Assembly (NCBI GenBank): GCA_028286245.1
Contig: JAQBRY010000002.1
Span: 392,779-456,778, forward strand
Length of the DNA stretch: 64,000 bases
Reading direction: 5' to 3'
Source: Candidatus Saccharimonadota bacterium
Lineage (GTDB): Bacteria > Patescibacteriota > Saccharimonadia > Saccharimonadales > UBA4665
Shown here piece by piece: positions 41,795 through 51,356 of this stretch (within the stretch, counting starts at the first letter, position 1; each line of letters begins with the position of its first letter). The position numbers and the translations under genes are program-made. The notes beneath the pieces are model-generated. The model was not told the origin of the DNA, made no database searches, and saw only the letters and a program-made list of their open reading frames with translations.

Positions 41795-43726
41795 ATGGAA
41801 AATGCTAAAGACCAGATTGTAGAAAAGCTCCACTCAGCGGCGAATATCCTCGTGACGGTCAGCCGTGACCCTTCGGTGGACCAGTTGGCGGCTTGTATTG
41901 GCTTGACGCTGGCGCTCAACAAAATGGGCAAGCACGCTACGGCGGTATTTAGCGGTGCCATTCCATCAACTCTGGAATTTTTGCAGCCGACAGATACTAT
42001 CGAAAAAAACACCGATAGCCTGCGCGACTTTATTATCGCCCTCGATAAAAGTAAGGCCGACAAGCTCCGTTACAAGGTAGAGGACGAGATGGTCCGCATT
42101 TTTATTACACCGTACCGCACGTCAATTACCTCCGACGATCTGGTATTTAGCCAAGGTGACTTTAACGTCGACGCCGTAGTGGCACTCGGCGTGGCCGAGC
42201 AGAAAGATTTTGACGAAGCCATCATGTCCCATGGCCGAATTTTGCACGATGCAACCGTTATAAGCATCACTACAAGTGATCATTCGGAGCTCGGCAGTAT
42301 TAACTGGGCAGTTCCGCAGGCCAGTAGCTTGTCGGAATTAGTCGCGGACCTCTCTGATACGCTCGACACTTCGTTGCTGGATGGCCAGATCGCTACCGCA
42401 CTCCTAACCGGTATCGTGGCTGAAACAGCTCGCTTTAGTAACGAAAAAACCACACCTCGTACCATGAGCGTCAGTGCCGAGCTGATGGCTGCCGGTGCCA
42501 ATCAGCAGCTAGTAGCCAGCAAGCTCGACGAACCTGTTAGTGAAGCAGCGGCGGCAGACGAGTCAGACAAAGAAGCCGCATCGCAGAACGAGACCAAAAA
42601 AGAGCCAGATAACTCTGAGGCTGCCCAAGCAGACAAGCCCGAGCCGTCCAAGCCTAAAAAAGAGCCTGGTACGCTAGAAATTGAGCATGAATCTAGCGAA
42701 GCAGCGGCTGACAATGAGCAACCTATGTCCGGCATTGAGCAAATTTTGTCTGAACAACCAGAGGCCGATGCCGAAACAGACCAGCTCCCGGCACCAGTCT
42801 GGACCGAACCAGAGGTTACGGCCCTCAACGACCAGAACGCAAAATCGGACGCTACCGATGATGTAGACAAGGCAGAAGATAGCGAGAGTACGCCGGAAGA
42901 TCAGGCGGATAGTCAACCCGGCGAAGAAGTACCTCGAACTTCAAAATTAATTACCGAACCACCAACTATGGGTGGACGGCTGACGGCTAATTCTGAGCCG
43001 GAGGCGCTTGACCCTGCCAACGATCCGCTGGGAGTTAGTAACACCCAACAGTCGCCGCTACTTAATCGATCTACCAGCAGTACTACTCCTCAAGAAGCAC
43101 CGGCAGACAAGTCAGCCCTCCCGCAACCAGCAGTATCCTGGACGCCTCCGACTCCACCGGAAAAACCGTCTGAACCCGAGCCTTTATTAACGGGCTTTAC
43201 GCCACCACCTCCAGCCTGGGTGCCCCCAACCGCGCCCGCAAATGGAGAACAACCGTTTCCTGGGAGCGAGCAGTCAAATGATGCTGCCAGCGAGCCTGAC
43301 AACACAAAAACCTTGACCGAAATCGAAGCTTCCGTTAACAGCATACATTTAGGTACCGAAAACGTTGATGATGCCCGCGATGAAGTACAGCGAGCGCTAA
43401 ATAGTAGTCCACCGGTACCGGAACCCGTAGTAGCTTTGGGCGCGCAGCCACTTGGTGACCCGATCCGTCCACCAGAGGGTTTTGAGCAACCCTCAGCTGG
43501 TTTTGTTGATACGCTTGCACAAGTTATTCCCGCCGAGTCCCCGCTGTCTGTTCCGCCCGCTCCCAATGATGGCATCCCCCAAGAAATAGCGGCTTTGCCG
43601 GGCTTTACTGCGCCGCTACCACCAGCCCCAGCCGTCTTACCCGCCCCTCCGCAGGTACAGGATCCCAATGCACCCCCAGTCGTGCCGCCACCCTTCCAGT
43701 TTAAAACTGCACCCCCACAACAATAA
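41795..43726 (+). CDS. Degenerate DHH-family protein with long Pro/Glu-rich tail
   Basis: The product is 643 residues. Residues 1-245 follow a DHH phosphoesterase framework (NILVTVSRDPSVDQLAACIG, ALNKMGKHATAVFSG, DFNVDAVVALG, TGIVAETARFSNEKT), but the metal-binding motifs are changed: DPSVD at 25-29 instead of HxxPDxD, and TTSDHSELG instead of DHH. Hydrolase activity is therefore unlikely. Residues 246-643 are low complexity (Glu, Pro, Ala, Gln), probably disordered, with proline-rich runs. It may be a scaffold. It heads the region upstream of truB. Confidence 0.75.
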   Translation: MENAKDQIVEKLHSAANILVTVSRDPSVDQLAACIGLTLALNKMGKHATAVFSGAIPSTLEFLQPTDTIEKNTDSLRDFIIALDKSKADKLRYKVEDEMVRIFITPYRTSITSDDLVFSQGDFNVDAVVALGVAEQKDFDEAIMSHGRILHDATVISITTSDHSELGSINWAVPQASSLSELVADLSDTLDTSLLDGQIATALLTGIVAETARFSNEKTTPRTMSVSAELMAAGANQQLVASKLDEPVSEAAAADESDKEAASQNETKKEPDNSEAAQADKPEPSKPKKEPGTLEIEHESSEAAADNEQPMSGIEQILSEQPEADAETDQLPAPVWTEPEVTALNDQNAKSDATDDVDKAEDSESTPEDQADSQPGEEVPRTSKLITEPPTMGGRLTANSEPEALDPANDPLGVSNTQQSPLLNRSTSSTTPQEAPADKSALPQPAVSWTPPTPPEKPSEPEPLLTGFTPPPPAWVPPTAPANGEQPFPGSEQSNDAASEPDNTKTLTEIEASVNSIHLGTENVDDARDEVQRALNSSPPVPEPVVALGAQPLGDPIRPPEGFEQPSAGFVDTLAQVIPAESPLSVPPAPNDGIPQEIAALPGFTAPLPPAPAVLPAPPQVQDPNAPPVVPPPFQFKTAPPQQ

Positions 43727-43776
43727 GTTACTAATGCTTGCTGACGATTCTAATTATCTGCATACTAGCTAGCTGT

Positions 43777-44460
43777 ATGCAGGGAATACTTCTCGTTGAT
43801 AAACCAGCCGGTTGGACATCATTTGATGTTGTTAACTATGTTCGGCGTATTGTTGCCAAGGCAGAGGGTAAAAAGCCCAAGAACTGCAAAGTTGGGCATA
43901 CCGGCACGCTTGATCCATTTGCCACTGGTCTTTTAATTTTACTAGTCGGCAAAGAATACACTCGGCGAGCCGGCGAGTTCAGTAAACTTGATAAAGTCTA
44001 TGAAATGACCATGCAGCTGGGGTCTAAAAGTACGACCGGCGACCCGGAAGGCGAGATTGCTGAGCTTCCGGGCCAACCCCCAAGCCTCGAAGCTCTGCAG
44101 GCGGCCGTCGATCAGTTCAAGGGCGAGATTCAACAGGTGCCACCGATGTATTCGGCCATCAAAATTGATGGCCAGCGGGCCTACAAACTAGCCCGGGAAG
44201 GCAAAGAAGTAATTATTGCAGCCCGCCCGGTCACCGTCCACCGCCTCGAAATCATCGAATACGCCTATCCGGAAGTAAAACTAATTGCCGACGTCTCCTC
44301 GGGCACCTACATCCGCACCCTGGTAGAGGACATCGCGCTCAGCCTAGGCACCGTCGCTTATACTACGCAGCTGCGCCGTACCCGCATTGCCGATTTTAAT
44401 GTCGCCAACGCCGTTTTGGCTCAAGCTGACGACGTCCTCGATCATCTCCATCAGATGTAG
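43777..44460 (+). CDS. truB: tRNA pseudouridine-55 synthase TruB
   Basis: The product is 227 residues, shorter than the E. coli enzyme because the C-terminal PUA domain is absent. The N-terminus GILLVDKPAGWTSFDVVNYV and the catalytic motif GHTGTLDPFATGLL (Asp in TLDP) are diagnostic. QVPPMYSAIKIDGQRAYKLAR and SSGTYIRTLVEDIA follow as expected. It forms the T-loop pseudouridine of tRNAs. ATG 43777 is used because the family signature starts there; the longer frame to 43738 is hydrophobic and unrelated. Confidence 0.95.
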   Translation: MQGILLVDKPAGWTSFDVVNYVRRIVAKAEGKKPKNCKVGHTGTLDPFATGLLILLVGKEYTRRAGEFSKLDKVYEMTMQLGSKSTTGDPEGEIAELPGQPPSLEALQAAVDQFKGEIQQVPPMYSAIKIDGQRAYKLAREGKEVIIAARPVTVHRLEIIEYAYPEVKLIADVSSGTYIRTLVEDIALSLGTVAYTTQLRRTRIADFNVANAVLAQADDVLDHLHQM

Positions 44461-44462
44461 TA

Positions 44463-44491
44463 TTGACAAATTCAAGTAAAAGCGATATAAT
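44463..44491 (+). promoter_or_regulatory. Consensus promoter TTGACA-N17-TATAAT
   Basis: TTGACA 44463-44468, 17 bases, TATAAT 44486-44491, immediately after truB; the ATG at 44502 is 10 bases further. It is the closest match to the sigma-70 consensus in the window. Confidence 0.85.
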
Positions 44492-44501
44492 GTAGTATAG
44501 T

Positions 44502-44972
44502 ATGTCTGAACAATTAAACCCAAATCGCGATCTCAGTGAGTCTCACGCCGTAAAAGCATATCTCCAGTTTGCGACTCAATCACTCGTCGGGGCAGGGGTC
44601 GTGCCCTATATAAAGGCGTATCAAGCATCTGTGCGTTCGATGACCGACGGTGACAGCCAAAAGAGTTGGCGAGTGCGCTCTGCTGATGATTTCGTAGCCG
44701 CTGAATTACCGCTCGCTATTACAGCTTCCAATCTTGTCGAGCCTGATTTGTATATCAGTTGCGACTATTACAACCTAGTGAAGGTCGATGAGCGAAGCAA
44801 TGCTTTTAATGCTAAACAGCTGAGGCTGTTTTCTATAATGGGTGATAAGATCGAAGGACTATGGGCACCCGTATCACCAGAGTTAGCAGAGGTTACGCGT
44901 GAACTTTATGCTACGCAGGTTAGGCTTGGGTGGGAGCCTATTGTCGACTCGGCTGAAGACTTTTGTGATTAG
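44502..44972 (+). CDS. Hypothetical cytosolic protein
   Basis: The product is 156 residues with no signal peptide or membrane helix. Visible segments are a helix (SHAVKAYLQFATQSLVG), WRVRSADDFVAAELPLAI and an aromatic strand DLYISCDYYNLVKV. I recognise no family. It has the window's best promoter, so it is likely abundant or regulated. The rpsO promoter begins just after its stop. Confidence 0.6.
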   Translation: MSEQLNPNRDLSESHAVKAYLQFATQSLVGAGVVPYIKAYQASVRSMTDGDSQKSWRVRSADDFVAAELPLAITASNLVEPDLYISCDYYNLVKVDERSNAFNAKQLRLFSIMGDKIEGLWAPVSPELAEVTRELYATQVRLGWEPIVDSAEDFCD

Positions 44973-44980
44973 GTAGGCTG

Positions 44981-45009
44981 TTGCGCATCTGGCGGTCATC
45001 TGGTAGAAT
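44981..45009 (+). promoter_or_regulatory. rpsO promoter TTGCGC-N17-TAGAAT
   Basis: TTGCGC 44981-44986, 17-base spacer, TAGAAT 45004-45009, ending 8 bases before ATG 45018. Confidence 0.6.
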
Positions 45010-45017
45010 AGCTGAAT

Positions 45018-45284
45018 ATGATTACAAGTGAGAAGAAAACAGCCGCTATCAAAGGCGCACAAGCACACGCTAAGGACACTGGTGGTTCAAGTGCTCAGGT
45101 AGCTATCCTTACCGAACGGATCAAGGAACTTACCGAGCACCTCAAAATTAATAAGCACGATTTCATGGCTCGCCGTGGGCTGCTTCAGATGGTTGGGCGA
45201 CGCCGACGTTTGCTTCGCTACATCGCTGAGCGTGATAGCCAGGGCTACCTAGACTTGATTGCCAAACTAGGCATCCGCCGCTAG
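45018..45284 (+). CDS. rpsO: 30S ribosomal protein S15
   Basis: The product is 88 residues, the normal length. GSSAQVAILTERIKELTEHL and KHDFMARRGLLQMVGRRRRL are the S15 signature. It binds 16S rRNA and is often autoregulated. The order rpsO-pnp is the ancestral bacterial arrangement, but here the two are separated by 398 bases with a long hairpin and an apparent new promoter. Confidence 0.97.
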   Translation: MITSEKKTAAIKGAQAHAKDTGGSSAQVAILTERIKELTEHLKINKHDFMARRGLLQMVGRRRRLLRYIAERDSQGYLDLIAKLGIRR

Positions 45285-45404
45285 GCAATTTCCAGGAGGG
45301 CGTATTTTCCGCCATATTCGTCGAATTGCTTTTCACCGTACTTTTGTACGGCTCATGCGCAACTCTAGAATCTGACGAAAACTACACTCCTCCTGAAAAA
45401 TTGC
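45285..45404. other. Elongated multi-stem hairpin directly after rpsO
   Basis: Nested pairings run through this 120-base stretch: GCAATT (45285-45290) with AATTGC (45399-45404); CAGGAGG (45293-45299) with CCTCCTG (45389-45395); TTCGTC (45317-45322) with GACGAA (45374-45379); TTGC (45326-45329) with GCAA (45359-45362); and a terminal hairpin CCGTAC-TTTT-GTACGG (45336-45351). It begins at the base after the rpsO stop. No U-run follows, so it is not a standard terminator. It could be an RNase III-type processing site, a small RNA or a miniature inverted-repeat element. Confidence 0.7.
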
Positions 45405-45682
45405 AGGTCCGTAAAAGGCAATCGCGGGAGAGGGGGTGAGCAAGTTTTTGGAAGGTTTCGGGAAGTTAAGGAATTGTTAATGAATATGAATAAGTTTTAG
45501 GTATAATGAGGATTGTGAACAGACAGGGGTTTTTCAAACGTTGAAGAACCAAGCTTGTGCACATTAACGTTTGAGGAAACTCTCAGGCAGACTAGCAGAT
45601 ATACACCGCCCTTAACAGCACAGGACCGCGCGTATATTTGGATTTTGCTTAAGAGTGCTTAGACAGAAAGATTGAGGCCTTC
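45405..45682 (+). promoter_or_regulatory. Noncoding interval with promoter and structured pnp leader
   Basis: No gene is visible. TATAAT at 45502-45507 would start a leader of about 168 bases. The leader contains the stem CAAACGTT (45535-45542) with AACGTTTG (45566-45573) and a weaker pairing of ATATAC (near 45600) with GTATAT (near 45633). PNPase commonly controls its own leader after RNase III cleavage; a similar mechanism here is inference. The first 95 bases (45405-45500) are G/A-rich with no evident feature. Confidence 0.5.
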
Positions 45683-47815
45683 ATGGGACAAACAATTAAC
45701 CCGTTAGGTAAAGAAATAATTAAAGTCGAGACAGAGTTGTGCGGACGCACGCTCAGTCTTGAGGTGGGTCGCGTCGGTTTCCGTACGTCAGCATCGGTGA
45801 TTGCGCGTTACGGCGACACCGTTGTACTCGGTACGGCCATGGTTAGCAACAAAAGTTTAGTCGGCTTTGACTACTTTCCGCTAAGCATTGATTACGAAGA
45901 AAAGATGTATGCAGCTGGTAAAATTAGCGGCAGCCGCTTTATTAAGCGAGAAGGCCGCCCCAGTGACGATGCCATTCTGATTGGCCGTTTAATCGATCGC
46001 CCAATCCGGCCCCTATGGCCCAAGGGTTATCGCCACGAGGCCCAAGGCGTGGCCAGCGTACTCAGCATGGATCCATCGTTCCGCCCGGATATGGTGGCTA
46101 TGATTGCCCTCAGCGCCGCCTTTATGCTCACCGGTGCGCCGTTTGACGGCCCAGTTGCCGGTCTTCGAGTTGGTCTGGTTGACGGTAAGTACACTGCCTT
46201 TGCTACCCCTGATCAGCTAAATGACGGCGACCTCGACCTGGTTGTTGCTGGTACTAAAGACGGCGTTATGATGGTAGAGGCTGGTGCCAGCGAAGTCACC
46301 GAAGAGCAGATTGCCGAAGCAATTGCCTATGCCTTCGAAGCCATGCAGCCGGCAATCGCCTTGCAGCAAGAACTCGTCGAGAAGATAGGTGTCACTCCTC
46401 AAGAGTTCACGCTCGAACTGCCTGATACTATTATTCAAACCGAAGTGAACTCCTGGATTGAGGGCCGCCTCGGCGAAGACCTCCGCAAGCCCTACCCGGA
46501 ACGCAATGTTCTGGTGCAAAATCTTCGTGAAGAGATGCAGGCAGCTATGGCCGAAAAGCACGGTGATGACTACACGGCCATCAAGAACGAGTATGACGAG
46601 GCTTTCCAATCTGCCGTCCACAAAGACGTGCGCGAGGGAATTATCAAAGACGGTGTTCGCCCGGACGGTCGTGGACTCACCGAAATCCGCACCCTGAGCA
46701 GCGAAGTAGGACTACTGCCACGAGCCCATGGATCAAGCCTCTTTACCAGAGGTATGACACAGGCTCTCAATATTGTTACCTTGGCCCCATTAAGCTTTAA
46801 CCAGGTTGTAGATACTATGGAAAAAGAGGGCGAACGCCGCTACTTTCACCATTACAACGCACCCGGTTACACCGTTGGTGAAGTCCGTCGCCTTGGTTCA
46901 CCGGGCCGCCGTGAAATCGGCCACGGCTACCTTGCCGAGCGAGCTGTTACCGCAGTATTGCCTAGTGAGTCAGAATTCCCCTACGCCATTCGTTCCGTCA
47001 CCGAAATTATGAGCCAGAACGGCTCTACCAGTATGGCGGCCACCTGTTCAAGTGTCTTAGCGCTCCTCAACGCCGGCGTGCCTCTCAAGGCCATGGTGAG
47101 CGGTATTGCCATGGGGCTGATGGTTGATGGTGAACGCGCCATAGTCCTCAGCGACATCGCCGACGCCGAAGACTTTGCCGGCGACATGGACTTTAAGGTA
47201 ACGGGGACCGAAAAGGGCATCACCGCCTTACAGATGGACATGAAGGTCCACGGTTTGCCTGTTTCTGTGCTCAAACAAGCACTCGACCAAGGTAAGGACG
47301 GCCGCGCACACATTCTTGAGCACATGAAGACCACCATTACCGAGCCAGCCCCAATGAGCCCATACGCACCGCGCGTCGAATCCATCCAGATTAACCCCGA
47401 TAAAATTCGCGAAGTGATCGGTAAGGGCGGGGAAATGATCCAGCGCATTACCGGCGAGACCAACACCCAGATTGATATCAAAGATGATGGAACCGTTATG
47501 ATTGCTAGCCCCGACGGCGAAAGCATCGAAGCCGCTCGCCAGTGGATTCTGAGCATTACCGCCGAGCCGGAAGTCGGCACCATTTACAAGGACAAGCCTG
47601 TTATGACCGTGATGGACTTCGGTGCCTTTGTGCAGATTATGCCCGGCAAAGACGGCCTGGTCCACGTTTCCGAAATGAGCAATGAGCGCGTTGGCCATCC
47701 AAGCGACGTCGTGAAAGAGGGCGACCTCGTTAACGTCAAACTCCTAGGAATCGACGAACGCGGCCGCTTGCAGCTCAGCATGAAGGCAGCTGCCCAGGAG
47801 CTTGAGCAAAAATAA
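45683..47815 (+). CDS. pnp: Polyribonucleotide nucleotidyltransferase (PNPase)
   Basis: The product is 710 residues. Two RNase PH domains are present: the first with GDTVVLGTAMVSNK and the second with FTRGMTQALNIVTL and YTVGEVRRLGSPGRREIGHG, joined by the alpha-helical domain. The KH domain (IREVIGKGGEMIQRITGET) and S1 domain (MDFGAFVQIMPGKDGLVHVS) complete it. It degrades RNA phosphorolytically from the 3' end. The stop overlaps the next start (TAATG), opening a chain of coupled genes. Confidence 0.97.
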   Translation: MGQTINPLGKEIIKVETELCGRTLSLEVGRVGFRTSASVIARYGDTVVLGTAMVSNKSLVGFDYFPLSIDYEEKMYAAGKISGSRFIKREGRPSDDAILIGRLIDRPIRPLWPKGYRHEAQGVASVLSMDPSFRPDMVAMIALSAAFMLTGAPFDGPVAGLRVGLVDGKYTAFATPDQLNDGDLDLVVAGTKDGVMMVEAGASEVTEEQIAEAIAYAFEAMQPAIALQQELVEKIGVTPQEFTLELPDTIIQTEVNSWIEGRLGEDLRKPYPERNVLVQNLREEMQAAMAEKHGDDYTAIKNEYDEAFQSAVHKDVREGIIKDGVRPDGRGLTEIRTLSSEVGLLPRAHGSSLFTRGMTQALNIVTLAPLSFNQVVDTMEKEGERRYFHHYNAPGYTVGEVRRLGSPGRREIGHGYLAERAVTAVLPSESEFPYAIRSVTEIMSQNGSTSMAATCSSVLALLNAGVPLKAMVSGIAMGLMVDGERAIVLSDIADAEDFAGDMDFKVTGTEKGITALQMDMKVHGLPVSVLKQALDQGKDGRAHILEHMKTTITEPAPMSPYAPRVESIQINPDKIREVIGKGGEMIQRITGETNTQIDIKDDGTVMIASPDGESIEAARQWILSITAEPEVGTIYKDKPVMTVMDFGAFVQIMPGKDGLVHVSEMSNERVGHPSDVVKEGDLVNVKLLGIDERGRLQLSMKAAAQELEQK

Positions 47816-48027
47816 TGCACCGCCTCAAGGTACTGTTCGCTAGTGTTAATAACGGCCCAACCTTTACTTATGGGATGGCGTTGGCAGGACTTGTACTGAC
47901 TATTGTGTTCGCACTGACGGCCTGGGGTGAGCCAGGTGTACTCAACGTAATGACGGTTATTGTGCTCAGCTTGCTGACGGCAAGTTACGGGCGCGAAATA
48001 ATTTTGATGCGAAAGAAGCAGCAGTGA
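47815..48027 (+). CDS. Tiny two-helix membrane protein A, coupled to pnp
   Basis: The product is 70 residues with helices at about 18-37 (YGMALAGLVLTIVFALTAWG) and 42-60, and a basic end (REIILMRKKQQ). Its ATG overlaps the pnp stop (TAATG), so it is read by re-initiating ribosomes. No family recognised. The next small gene starts at its stop codon (TGATG). Confidence 0.7.
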   Translation: MHRLKVLFASVNNGPTFTYGMALAGLVLTIVFALTAWGEPGVLNVMTVIVLSLLTASYGREIILMRKKQQ

Positions 48028-48224
48028 TGGACAAGCTTAACGCTTGGCACAAGACGGCACCGGGACTCTTAGTCTTCGGTGTCGTCGAACTGGCGGCCGC
48101 CTATGGCTTCTTTTGCCTATCGGTCGACCGCGGTAACCTTTGGTGGTATGCTGGCACCACCATCTTCCTGATAGGCGGCCTCCGAAATTTCCTCGTGTTA
48201 GTAACTAGGAGAACTGCCAAATGA
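48027..48224 (+). CDS. Tiny two-helix membrane protein B
   Basis: The product is 65 residues, helices at about 12-30 (GLLVFGVVELAAAYGFFCL) and 38-58, ending RRTAK. The ATG at 48027 overlaps the preceding TGA by one base; GTG 48024 is an alternative. It has the same size, topology and coupling as its neighbours but no obvious sequence identity to them. Confidence 0.65.
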   Translation: MDKLNAWHKTAPGLLVFGVVELAAAYGFFCLSVDRGNLWWYAGTTIFLIGGLRNFLVLVTRRTAK

Positions 48225-48517
48225 AGCGCAATGACAATCAAACGCTAATGATTTTCCCATATGTATTCTTAACTGGCACGAACCGAGGATGGGCAGATGC
48301 CGAGAAGACGAGCTCAGCCATATTAGCGATGTGCGTAATCGTTACGTTGCTCATTGCTGGGTTCGTAAGCTACGAACTAGTACTGATTTACAGTCGGGCT
48401 GCCAGCCATAGCATTAAGTTATATTTGGTTTACGCATTCTGCACGCTGTTAATAGTAGGCATGCTAAAGGACTCGTTAAAGGTAATTCTGATGATTCGTG
48501 AGCGTGCCACCTCATGA
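48221..48517 (+). CDS. Small two-helix membrane protein C
   Basis: The product is 98 residues. A hydrophilic start of about 28 residues contains a hydrophobic patch (LMIFPYVFL). Two helices follow at about 32-55 and 67-84. The C-terminus is KVILMIRERATS. It overlaps the previous gene by ATGA and the UDG gene by ATGA. No family recognised. Confidence 0.65.
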   Translation: MKRNDNQTLMIFPYVFLTGTNRGWADAEKTSSAILAMCVIVTLLIAGFVSYELVLIYSRAASHSIKLYLVYAFCTLLIVGMLKDSLKVILMIRERATS

Positions 48518-49113
48518 GTAAACAAGCTCAGCTCGACGCGATAGCCAAAAAGATCGTTGATGACAAAGTCACTCCGGAGTTGGCCGCATCGGCGACGCAA
48601 CTGGTACTTGGCGATGGTAACCCGGATGCCGACGTAGTGTTTATAGGCGAAGCGCCCGGCAAAAATGAGGATCTGCAGGGAAAACCGTTTGTGGGAGTTT
48701 CCGGTAAGTTCCTTAACGAGATGCTTGGTACAATAGGGATGGAACGTAAGGATATTTATATTACCAATATTGTTAAATATCGTCCGCCGGACAATCGGGA
48801 CCCTAAGCCGGACGAAAAAAAGGCCTTCCTGCCATATTTACAGAGCCAGCTAGAAGTAATTCAGCCCAAAGTCGTTGTGACGCTGGGCCGCCACAGTATG
48901 AATTGCTTCTTGCCGGACCTGCAAATCAGTAAAGTCCACGGGGAACCAAAGAGAGTAAAGCTGAGTTTAAAAAATAACTCGCAGGACGTGTTGGAAGTGG
49001 TGATATTGCCACTGTACCATCCGGCTGCCGCTCTCTATAACCCCCTCCAGCGGCAGACATTGATTGATGATTTTGCAGTAATCCCATTAGTAATGAATAA
49101 AATTAAGAAATAG
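48514..49113 (+). CDS. Family 4-type uracil-DNA glycosylase lacking iron-sulfur ligands
   Basis: The product is 199 residues. The catalytic motif GEAPGKNEDLQGKPFVG at 45-61 and the motif LPLYHPAAALYN near 163-175 are those of family 4 UDGs, which remove uracil from DNA. In that family four cysteines hold a 4Fe-4S cluster. Here the N-terminal pair is absent (ATQLVLGDGNPDA), the third site is Tyr89 in IVKYRPPDNRDP (family VKCRPP), and the fourth is Phe105 in KKAFLPYL. The only cysteine left is in MNCFLP. The enzyme has probably lost the cluster but may keep activity. It is coupled to the small membrane genes by ATGA. Confidence 0.88.
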   Translation: MSKQAQLDAIAKKIVDDKVTPELAASATQLVLGDGNPDADVVFIGEAPGKNEDLQGKPFVGVSGKFLNEMLGTIGMERKDIYITNIVKYRPPDNRDPKPDEKKAFLPYLQSQLEVIQPKVVVTLGRHSMNCFLPDLQISKVHGEPKRVKLSLKNNSQDVLEVVILPLYHPAAALYNPLQRQTLIDDFAVIPLVMNKIKK

Positions 49114-49120
49114 TAGAAAG

Positions 49121-49155
49121 TTTCCGTATTTACGGAAATATCGAGTGATTCACTC
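49121..49155 (+). other. Two tandem hairpins in the RNase J leader
   Basis: TTTCCGTA-TT-TACGGAAA (49121-49138) and GAGTG-ATT-CACTC (49143-49155) lie directly upstream of the rnj Shine-Dalgarno. They are not followed by a U-run. They could regulate the mRNA for RNase J. Confidence 0.6.
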
Positions 49156-49169
49156 AGAAAAGGAGAATT

Positions 49170-51356
49170 ATGAATCCAAATAACCCAAACACAGATGCAC
49201 AAGCTGCACCAGCTCCCGGCAATAAGCCAAGCGGAGATGGTAGCCGACCTCCTAGAAATGGTGGCGGCCAGGGCCGCGGCCGCGGCGGTCAGAGCCGTGG
49301 CGGCCAGGGAAGAGGCGGTCAAGGCCGCTCGTCCCAAGGCGGACAGGTCCTTAGTAGCAGCCTTAATACCTCTCGGGGTCAAGCTGTGCGCGCCCAAAAG
49401 CGCTCACAAATGGACGCCCAGCGCATCGCTAACCAATATCAAACAGCTGATGCTGTTAAGCCCTCACGGGCTAACGTCATCGATGACCAGCCACGCCTCA
49501 AACTGATCGGACTTGGCGGCATGGACGGTGGTGGCTCCAAGAATATGATTTTAGTGGAATACATCAACGACGCCGTCATTATAGATTGTGGTAACGACCT
49601 TGGTGTTGATCTACCTGGTATTAACTACGGTATTGCTGACACCGCTTACGTAGAGCAAATCCACCACAAACTCCGTGGTTACATCATTACCCACGGTCAC
49701 CTTGACCATATTGGTGGCTTGCCGCACATCGTGCCTAAATTCCCAGCACCAATTTACGGTAGCAACTTTACTATTGGTCGCGTCGAAGAAATTTTTAATA
49801 ACTTTGGCCTGCCAATGCCTGACGGTTTTGAACTCAAGACGGTTACCATGAACGAAAACACCCACGAACGCCTAAAGCTCGGTGAGTTCTTTGTTGAACT
49901 CGTGCGTGTTACACACTCTATCCCGGGTTCTACGTGCGTCGTACTGGACACACCAGTTGGCCGCTTAATTAACACCGGTGACTTCCGTCTCGACCCAAAT
50001 CCGCTTGATCACGAACGCACCGATATTGACCGTTTGAAAGAACTCGGCAACGAAGGCGTTTTGGCACTACTAAGTGAAAGTACAACCGTTGAGCGTGCTG
50101 GCCGTACCCCTAGCGAAAGCACCATCGAACAAAGCTTTGTGGACATTATTAACCAAGCACCAGGCCGCATCTTTGTAGGGCTATTCTCAACCAACATGAA
50201 CCGCGTCCAAATGATCGTCAACGCCGCCGTGCACAACGGCCGCAAGGTCGCCATGGATGGCCGCAGCATGGTAAGCACGCTCGAAATGGCTGTTCGTCAC
50301 GGTTTTGTCCGCGTGCCAAAAGGTACGTTTGTACCAATTGCCAGCGTGGCAACCATGAAAGACCAGGACGTTGTTGTGGTCTGTACCGGTAGTCAGGGTG
50401 AACCATCAAGTGCGCTCCAGCGCATGGCTAACGGTGAGCACCGCCACGTCAAACTAAAGGAGCAGGACACGGTTGTACTTTCTAGTACGCCAATTCCAGA
50501 AAGTGGCAACGATGCCCTCATTGGCGACATGGTAGATGGCCTTGTTCGCAAGAATGTGCACGTTTTTGAACACCGCCACCACGAACTTGACGGCGTTGGC
50601 CCGTTGCACGTATCCGGTCACGCCAGCCGTGACGAATACGCTGATATGATCCAGTTCACTAAGCCAAAATTCTTTGTGCCAATTTATGGCGCCTTCCGTG
50701 TTAAGCAGCGCCACATCGAATTAGCCGTCGAAAACGGTGTACCTCGTGCCAACACTATTAACGCCGAAAACGGTCAGATAGTCTGCTTTACCCCAGACAA
50801 GATGGAGCTCGGCGGCGAAGTGCCCCACGGTACTGTCTTGGTTGACCAAACCGGTGCCGTTGTCAGTAACGTCGTGGTCAAAGACCGCGTGCTACTGAGC
50901 GAAGAAGGCTTGGTGGCAGTCATCCTGACCATCGATAAAAAGACTGGCAACCTCATGACCAGCCCGGACATTATTAGCCGCGGCTTTATTTACATGCGCG
51001 ACAACGAAGAAATTATGAACGGTCTGCGTGTTGAGCTTAAAAGAGCAGTCCAGCAGCGTTTTAAACGCGTCGATCTCGACCGCTTTAAAGTAGAGCTTAA
51101 GGACCACGTAACCCATTACTTGTTCGAACAAACTCAGCGTAGCCCAATTGTCATCCCGGTCATTAACGTCATTACTGGCGGTGGTGGTAAGGGCGACAAA
51201 AACCAAGGCCAATCAGGCCAACCAGGCCAAACAGGCCAGAATGGCCAGGCTGAGCAGCCTAAGCCAAGAACACCCGAAGAGCAAGCCGCCGACCAGCAGA
51301 AGCGCTTCCAAGAAATGCGTGCCCGTCTCCTAACACAAGACGCACGCACCGACTAA
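49170..51356 (+). CDS. rnj: Ribonuclease J with Gly/Arg-rich N-terminal and Gln/Gly-rich C-terminal tails
   Basis: The product is 728 residues. The beta-lactamase/beta-CASP core starts near residue 110. The metal motif THGHLDHIGG lies near 174-183, with SGHASRDEY and a C-terminal domain with VLLSEEGLVAVILTI. It degrades and matures RNA endo- and 5'-3' exonucleolytically. Residues 22-60 are an RGG-like repeat (GRGRGGQSRGGQGRGGQGR), an RNA-binding low-complexity type. The C-terminus has GQ repeats (QSGQPGQTGQNGQ). Shine-Dalgarno AAAAGGAG precedes ATG 49170. Confidence 0.95.
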   Translation: MNPNNPNTDAQAAPAPGNKPSGDGSRPPRNGGGQGRGRGGQSRGGQGRGGQGRSSQGGQVLSSSLNTSRGQAVRAQKRSQMDAQRIANQYQTADAVKPSRANVIDDQPRLKLIGLGGMDGGGSKNMILVEYINDAVIIDCGNDLGVDLPGINYGIADTAYVEQIHHKLRGYIITHGHLDHIGGLPHIVPKFPAPIYGSNFTIGRVEEIFNNFGLPMPDGFELKTVTMNENTHERLKLGEFFVELVRVTHSIPGSTCVVLDTPVGRLINTGDFRLDPNPLDHERTDIDRLKELGNEGVLALLSESTTVERAGRTPSESTIEQSFVDIINQAPGRIFVGLFSTNMNRVQMIVNAAVHNGRKVAMDGRSMVSTLEMAVRHGFVRVPKGTFVPIASVATMKDQDVVVVCTGSQGEPSSALQRMANGEHRHVKLKEQDTVVLSSTPIPESGNDALIGDMVDGLVRKNVHVFEHRHHELDGVGPLHVSGHASRDEYADMIQFTKPKFFVPIYGAFRVKQRHIELAVENGVPRANTINAENGQIVCFTPDKMELGGEVPHGTVLVDQTGAVVSNVVVKDRVLLSEEGLVAVILTIDKKTGNLMTSPDIISRGFIYMRDNEEIMNGLRVELKRAVQQRFKRVDLDRFKVELKDHVTHYLFEQTQRSPIVIPVINVITGGGGKGDKNQGQSGQPGQTGQNGQAEQPKPRTPEEQAADQQKRFQEMRARLLTQDARTD

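Follow-up and report, generated by a model that had tools for sequence, protein, structure and literature searches.

The 398-nt spacer between rpsO and pnp in this Saccharimonadales genome is most plausibly composed of two elements, a post-stop intercistronic hairpin (45285-45404) and a bistable cis-regulatory leader RNA of pnp (45515-45664); the probability of this combined reading was put at roughly 60 %. The existence of both elements, the P1 and P3 helices of the leader and its tie to pnp are well supported. Switching of the leader RNA, its regulation of pnp and the trigger involved are what we infer from these data.

Layout of the rpsO-pnp spacer

Positions are those of the window, i.e. 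the whole 64,000-nt stretch of DNA analysed, whose host genome consists of four contigs (1.13 Mb). The last base of rpsO is 45284 and the first of pnp 45683 (Table 1); of the 31 open reading frames with 60 aa or more that were listed for 42000-50000, none is located between the two genes. Coordinates and reading frames are in agreement with the initial annotation, made from the sequence of the window, in which a 398-base noncoding stretch was said to part the two genes. The same annotation took the stretch for one element; in most relatives the leader is present without the hairpin, so two separate things are involved.

The spacer is the longest among the 81 rpsO-pnp spacers measured (83 pnp loci of the family were fetched; the pnp starts of the relatives were taken from tblastn and the lengths are thus approximate). 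When the spacers of the relatives were compared side by side, the gap appeared to be assembled from parts. Similarity at the DNA level was confined to the second half of the spacer and to 9 of 60 genomes including the window genome; in the eight matching relatives it begins at spacer position 211 (45495) or later. When the whole spacer was folded, the result was only slightly better than expected by chance (z -1.74; 7 of 100 shuffles did equally well).

The search for tRNAs in the window gave none, and Rfam 15 at gathering thresholds gave no match there. Relaxed thresholds yielded in the spacer region three below-threshold matches only, to a lncRNA (E 0.014, minus strand), a microRNA (E 7.7) and a CRISPR repeat (E 8.3), which were read as chance, and the loci of 20 relatives were without an Rfam match at E up to 0.5. 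Eight phage records, including unannotated human-faecal phages and Listeria phage records, carry an S15-like reading frame corresponding to 45018-45284 and less than 60 % identical to the window rpsO.

Table 1. Features of the rpsO-pnp region in the window
Feature	Position	Strand	Basis or remark
rpsO, ribosomal protein S15	45018..45284	+	NCBIfam TIGR00952 equivalog, 114.5 bits
Post-stop hairpin, 120 nt, multi-tier, imperfect	45285..45404	+	starts at first base past rpsO stop; dispersed family
Hairpin tip, TCACCGTAC-loop-GTACGGCTC	45333..45354	+	tip-pattern match at C2:438111-438132
Filler, hairpin to TATAAT	45405..45501	+	no function assigned; almost without DNA match in relatives
TATAAT, candidate -10	45502..45507	+	seven bases before first base of the RNA
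pnp leader RNA, conserved core	45515..45657	+	R1 match, 101.1 bits; covariation
P0, 5' strand, GUGAACAG (GUGCnYAR in relatives)	45515..45522	+	pairs with 45555-45562, one mismatch
Hairpin P1	45528..45550 (45528-45537/45541-45550)	+	two-sided changes in all 8 modelled pairs; 80.4 % of cells paired
Invariant strand CUUGUGCAC, common to P0 and pseudoknot	45554..45562	+	sequence conservation
Long helix P3, carrying P4	45569..45664 (45569-45575/45658-45664 and 45580-45591/45644-45655)	+	covariation and fold
Helix P4, CAGAUAUA/UAUAUUUG	45596..45640	+	12 modelled pairs: 7 invariant, 4 with two-sided changes
Pseudoknot partner GCACAGG (GCACAAG in most relatives)	45618..45624	+	pairs with 45554-45560
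GAGG, candidate Shine-Dalgarno of pnp	45674..45677	+	putative, from sequence; unpaired in the fold, outside the helices
pnp, polynucleotide phosphorylase	45683..47815	+	NCBIfam TIGR03591 equivalog, 874.8 bits

Structure and distribution of the leader RNA

The full set of leader motifs was present in 59 of the 83 loci. Of these leaders 56 were aligned (alignment A1), with L040, L051 (a duplicate of L045) and L091 left out, and L033 was dropped too in A2. The architecture comprises hairpin P1, the long helix P3, helix P4 and a pseudoknot, with a strongly conserved and unpaired ACAUUAA. In the alignment of 56 sequences 87.4 % of the cells were paired in comparison to a shuffle mean of 75.4 %, and 308 cells carried two-sided changes in comparison to a mean of 127.0. 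The covariation score was 0.355, against 0.150 for shuffled alignments and 0.066-0.163 when the partners were slid, a shift that lowered the pairing to 30-50 %. Conservation of pairing in relatives, proposed as a check in the initial annotation, was thus borne out for the leader. The pairs with at least one two-sided change numbered 24 of 39, little above the shuffle mean of 21.1; the covariation is carried by P1 and P3 (20 of 20 pairs), with 4 of 12 pairs contributing in P4 and none in the pseudoknot. All 12 modelled pairs of P3 showed two-sided changes, with 85.4 % of the cells paired, and the outer seven P3 pairs were taken from the fold of the window sequence alone. The computed fold of the window leader contained P0, P1, P3 and P4 (z -2.87, 1 of 200 shuffles as good; the folding program cannot draw pseudoknots). 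An 8-pair stem singled out by the initial annotation exists as an inverted repeat (45525-45542/45566-45583), but it competes with P1, the stem conserved in relatives.

The strand CUUGUGCAC is nearly invariant (its first seven letters in 56 of 56 rows, its last two in at least 90 %) and has two predicted partners that exclude each other, GUGCnYAR at the 5' end of the RNA (P0) and GCACAAG downstream (the pseudoknot). In each of the 56 rows all 7 pairs of the pseudoknot CUUGUGC/GCACAAG can form, three times with a G-U in place of the usual pair, and within the family neither this pairing nor P0 displays a two-sided change. Outside the family, L179 and L180 have, by eye, a 9-pair version of the pseudoknot written in other letters. 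P0 contains three variable positions at which 47 cells, not independent events, depart from the commonest pair; all of them still pair, so that each position is paired in 56 of 56 rows. At the four outer P0 pairs, 13 cells of A1 do not pair. In A3, an alignment of 85 sequences, 83 rows cover the three P0 positions and show there no letter that would break the pairing; all four letters occur at the position between the P0 halves, and a letter other than G stands at the outermost position in 28 of the 83 rows having it. The shuffle control for P0 (96.6 % observed, 96.6 % shuffled) cannot discriminate because the partner strand hardly varies. Because CUUGUGCAC and GCACAAG vary so little, the support for P0 and the pseudoknot comes from wobble-preserving changes, which is weaker evidence than that for P1 and P3, and the two pairings are accordingly predicted ones. 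In the window genome P0 would form with one mismatch and the pseudoknot with one G-U.

The covariance model R1 was built from 55 sequences, that of the window (L011) included. It found the leader in 85 of the 88 rpsO-pnp loci submitted, 21 of 109 such loci having been left out. Across the order, where up to 10 candidates per genome were scored, 89 of 294 genomes gave a match, once each. Of these 89, 26 are from outside the family, and in every one of the 26 the hit is placed between rpsO and pnp. The other 205 genomes were without a match under strict filters, so pnp can do without the leader RNA or uses a diverged form of it. In the phylum 4 of 379 genomes matched, namely the window genome, two family members and one weak match (L182, E 0.009) that was dropped as chance, neither rpsO nor pnp being present in its 3.1-kb locus.

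A pattern scan of named genomes returned 68 stretches, largely the same genomes under names and hence not independent of the R1 hits. In 66 of them the leader lies between rpsO and pnp, one has rpsO upstream and ends before pnp, and one, labelled Microcoleus, has neither gene. By hand count the labels were Saccharibacteria, Saccharimonadales or Saccharimonas (47), Patescibacteria (2), 'bacterium' (17), Gammaproteobacteria (1) and Microcoleus (1). The Gammaproteobacteria-labelled contig (L187) carries an rpsO-leader-pnp block with an rpsO 72 % identical and is probably mis-binned.

Some genomes contain a simplified or degenerate leader. The simplified form, found in L060, L062, L071, L073 and L075 among others, is devoid of CUUGUGC and consists of a TCTAGAAT-ATTCTAGA-like hairpin, ATTAA and then one arm whose internal loop resembles the one in the full leader. 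A variant in L044, L078, L083, L085 and L090 has, by eye, a CGTTAGTA/TACCAACG-type pairing in place of P0; among the four of these loci run against R1, L083, L085 and L090 gave no match and L044 a weak one.

Proposed action of the leader on pnp

The mechanism that we consider starts from the choice of CUUGUGCAC between the first bases of the RNA itself (P0) and GCACAAG in the loop of the P3/P4 arm (pseudoknot). The fold chosen would set either the processing of the leader arm or the translation of pnp, and in this way the PNPase level. The likeliest output would be cutting of the long P3 arm by RNase III followed by PNPase attack, a feedback as in E. coli. Such a route is possible since RNase III is encoded in 39 of the 40 genomes searched (in the window genome at G000:C4:322523-323173, 226.5 bits). 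A direct on/off output is not visible because the putative Shine-Dalgarno sequence of pnp falls outside every helix. The PNPase autoregulation element suggested by the initial annotation is supported in part for the second half of the spacer, which did prove to hold a conserved, covarying RNA tied to pnp and a candidate for autoregulation.

Two known pnp leaders invite comparison. The Actino-pnp motif lies upstream of pnp, as the leader RNA does here. It is given as a structured, cis-regulatory RNA of Actinomycetales (RF01688) that is marked as not being a switch (Weinberg 2010, PMC2864571). It is the nearest named motif, yet its covariance model found no match in the window, in the spacer (E up to 10) or in 20 of the 83 family loci (E up to 0.5). 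The rpsO-pnp leader of E. coli is reportedly under RNase III/PNPase autocontrol. The leader presented here resembles it in lying between rpsO and pnp, in its long double-stranded arm and in the presence of an encoded RNase III; it differs by the predicted, conserved pseudoknot and the competing P0. PMC3997798 states that E. coli pnp regulates itself through the decay of its own mRNA. A limited search of the openly licensed literature gave no report of the leader RNA itself among the papers listed, and little on the control of genes at the RNA level in Saccharibacteria or other Patescibacteria; the riboswitch passage of PMC11665869 concerns tools.

The position of the RNA bears on what the trigger might be. 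Its start follows the rpsO stop codon at a median distance of 1 nt: 73 of 83 loci have at most 12 nt, 5 have 14-43 nt and 5 have 123-234 nt, and outside the family the RNA starts 0-2 nt past the stop in 25 of 26 cases. A terminating rpsO ribosome could therefore cover GUGCnYAR, which at a median of 1 nt would be inside the footprint given the size of the latter, block P0 and favour the pseudoknot, so that S15 translation would set PNPase synthesis. This proposal is a rather doubtful one, as close spacing is common anyway in compact genomes and the RNA is still conserved at the five loci 123-234 nt away, the window genome included, and at the five with 14-43 nt. The far loci imply that the ribosome cannot be the sole trigger. 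An extension of the idea, held to be equally doubtful, is that a pseudoknot leader with a 5' switching strand at the rpsO stop constitutes a new class of RNA switch, in which ribosomes finishing S15 would hold the pseudoknot and set the PNPase level, and lineages in which rpsO has moved away, the window genome among them, would use in place of the ribosome a promoter at the same base.

The five far loci are the window genome with its congeners L012 and L039 (144-234 nt in these three), L050 and L063. The gap in L050 holds a post-stop hairpin according to the model and that in L063 a hairpin-like insert by eye (its genome is without a model match), and for L012 and L039 no hairpin at rpsO was among the R2 matches listed. 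L012 and L039 share with the window genome a TATAAT placed 6-7 nt ahead of the first base of the RNA. In the window genome, where hairpin and filler part the RNA from rpsO, this promoter-like TATAAT could start transcription at the first base of the RNA. The motif had been pointed out by the initial annotation and is present, but a promoter scan of 44900-45800 found no sigma-70-type hexamer pair.

The candidate -10 in the window genome and two congeners would also suit a free-standing small RNA merely placed between rpsO and pnp, a form that the initial annotation had considered. The single kept position and the single match per genome, with all 26 loci outside the family lying between the two genes, make this highly improbable; moreover, with the RNA starting at the rpsO stop in most relatives, a promoter of its own would fall inside rpsO.

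Competition of two partners for one strand, the conserved unpaired ACAUUAA and the invariant P4 pairs are what a small-molecule riboswitch could display, P4 and the ACAUUAA strand forming a ligand pocket and binding stabilising the pseudoknot. We regard such a riboswitch as unlikely, since the hits with examined neighbours serve pnp alone, known metabolite riboswitches usually serving several genes, and no expression platform (terminator, masked Shine-Dalgarno) is visible. The bistable cis-regulatory leader, with P3 processing as its likeliest output, is kept as the preferred reading of the second half of the spacer.

The post-stop hairpin and its family

The first half of the spacer conforms to the tiered hairpin that the initial annotation placed from the first base after rpsO: 45285-45404 has a folding energy of -40.1 kcal/mol (z -5.51), matched by none of 200 shuffles. 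The covariance model R2 matched it at 45283-45410 with 73.3 bits, the copy itself being among the 30 source sequences of R2. The tip does not vary among the 30 aligned copies, though these had been selected by that very pattern. By DNA similarity the rpsO hairpin is unique in its genome, and a search for plasmid DNA similar to the hairpin copy of L108 gave none.

The tip pattern occurs at 3 sites in the window genome and at 35 sites in 18 of the 92 family genomes, and the reversed control pattern had no match in these 92. R2, built from 30 copies and run with at most 37 candidates scored per genome, gave 9 matches in the window genome and matches in 32 of the 92 family genomes. Copies elsewhere, named in the initial annotation as a sign of a mobile miniature repeat, were thus found for the first half (at least 9 in the genome), which does not imply mobility. 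The idea that the whole spacer is a mobile repeat draws on these 9 matches, and it is contradicted by the second half, with its one match per genome and its covariation, to the point that it can practically be dismissed.

In the alignment of 30 hairpins 82.9 % of the cells were paired (shuffle mean 58.9 %) and 214 cells carried two-sided changes in comparison to 85.7 in shuffles. In the number of pairs with two-sided changes (20 of 25) the alignment did no better than shuffles, which averaged 18.8 and attained it in 119 of 500 cases. Most copies have an outer stem of their own: the arm that paired best among all 30 3' arms was the copy's own in 24 of 30, and the 5' arms of different copies scored 8.9 against each other, barely above the 8.2 of shuffled arms, the cores reaching 35.5. 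The same-site hairpins of L038 and L055, from one genus, differ by eye in the outer stems on both arms with the pairing kept.

A sense reading frame of at least 80 codons ends within 25 nt of the hairpin start in 39 of 54 copies, in comparison to 6 of 54 in antisense and 196 of 2000 random positions; the 54 copies are not a random sample, since they comprise pattern copies and model matches in stretches chosen partly for clustering. Two repeats were removed from 56 to give 54, and L122, located within an ORF and judged not hairpin-like, was left out. The other eight copies in the window genome follow genes for a C-terminal processing peptidase, CTP synthase, S21, a glutaredoxin-like protein, a DEAD-box helicase, a peptidoglycan hydrolase-like protein, EF-Tu and IF-1; for three of these (glutaredoxin, helicase, hydrolase) the match falls under the NCBI cut-offs. 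The distance from stop codon to hairpin is at most 13 nt for seven of the eight and 37 nt for EF-Tu. Beyond the family, the tip pattern was found in 12 of 379 phylum genomes including the window genome, with 0 control matches, and the sense bias is thinner there (8 of 19 examined copies versus 1 of 19).

In a genome of another family (G436:C3, L317:1937-6816) R2 matches lie between L5 and S14, S8 and L6, L6 and L18, L18 and S5, and after SecY, with E from 3.7e-8 to 0.0075, those at S8-L6 and L18-S5 being weak. The ribosomal protein operon punctuated in this way reads L5, S14, S8, L6, L18, S5, L15, SecY. In G424 (L301, L311, L314) the same tip with an identical loop occurs at ten places on both strands; these look like another long repeat that has spread recently.

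Other known elements were considered. A reading as integron attC sites with gene cassettes was rejected, as the examined neighbours are core genes (pyrG, rpsU, infA, tuf and ribosomal protein genes); it is also opposed by the outer stems, mostly private here, the ends of attC sites being conserved. Insertion into the loop of a pre-existing terminator found no support at rpsO, where the leader within a few nt of the stop in most relatives leaves no room for a terminator hairpin.

The post-stop hairpins resemble the REP/BIME elements in being dispersed intergenic palindromes; they differ in their length of about 120 nt, the mostly private outer stem and the sense placement mostly directly at the stop. 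In the RepRanger article 446 of 4,072 E. coli REPs are within 15 nt of a stop codon, and the roles discussed are 3'-end protection, processing and slowing of terminating ribosomes (PMC12306157); its main text is without the words Patescibacteria and Saccharibacteria. No palindromes in Saccharibacteria were named among the titles listed from the openly licensed literature. The Y1 transposase domain (Y1_Tnp), that of the RAYT-type transposases associated with REPs, had no match in the window genome. It was found in 12 of 32 hairpin-bearing and 7 of 60 other genomes by the R2 split (Fisher p 0.006), but the association weakened when one genus was removed (6 of 26 versus 6 of 59, p 0.17), and the tip-pattern split gave 6 of 18 versus 13 of 74 (p 0.19).

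By analogy with REPs, the hairpin family may have a role at the RNA level, such as 3'-end protection, processing or slowing of terminating ribosomes. Its presence between core genes and inside one ribosomal protein operon suggests the marking of gene ends in reduced genomes. The leader at the other end of the spacer, a conserved and apparently two-state RNA before the gene of a main RNA-degrading enzyme, would make a compact, testable system.
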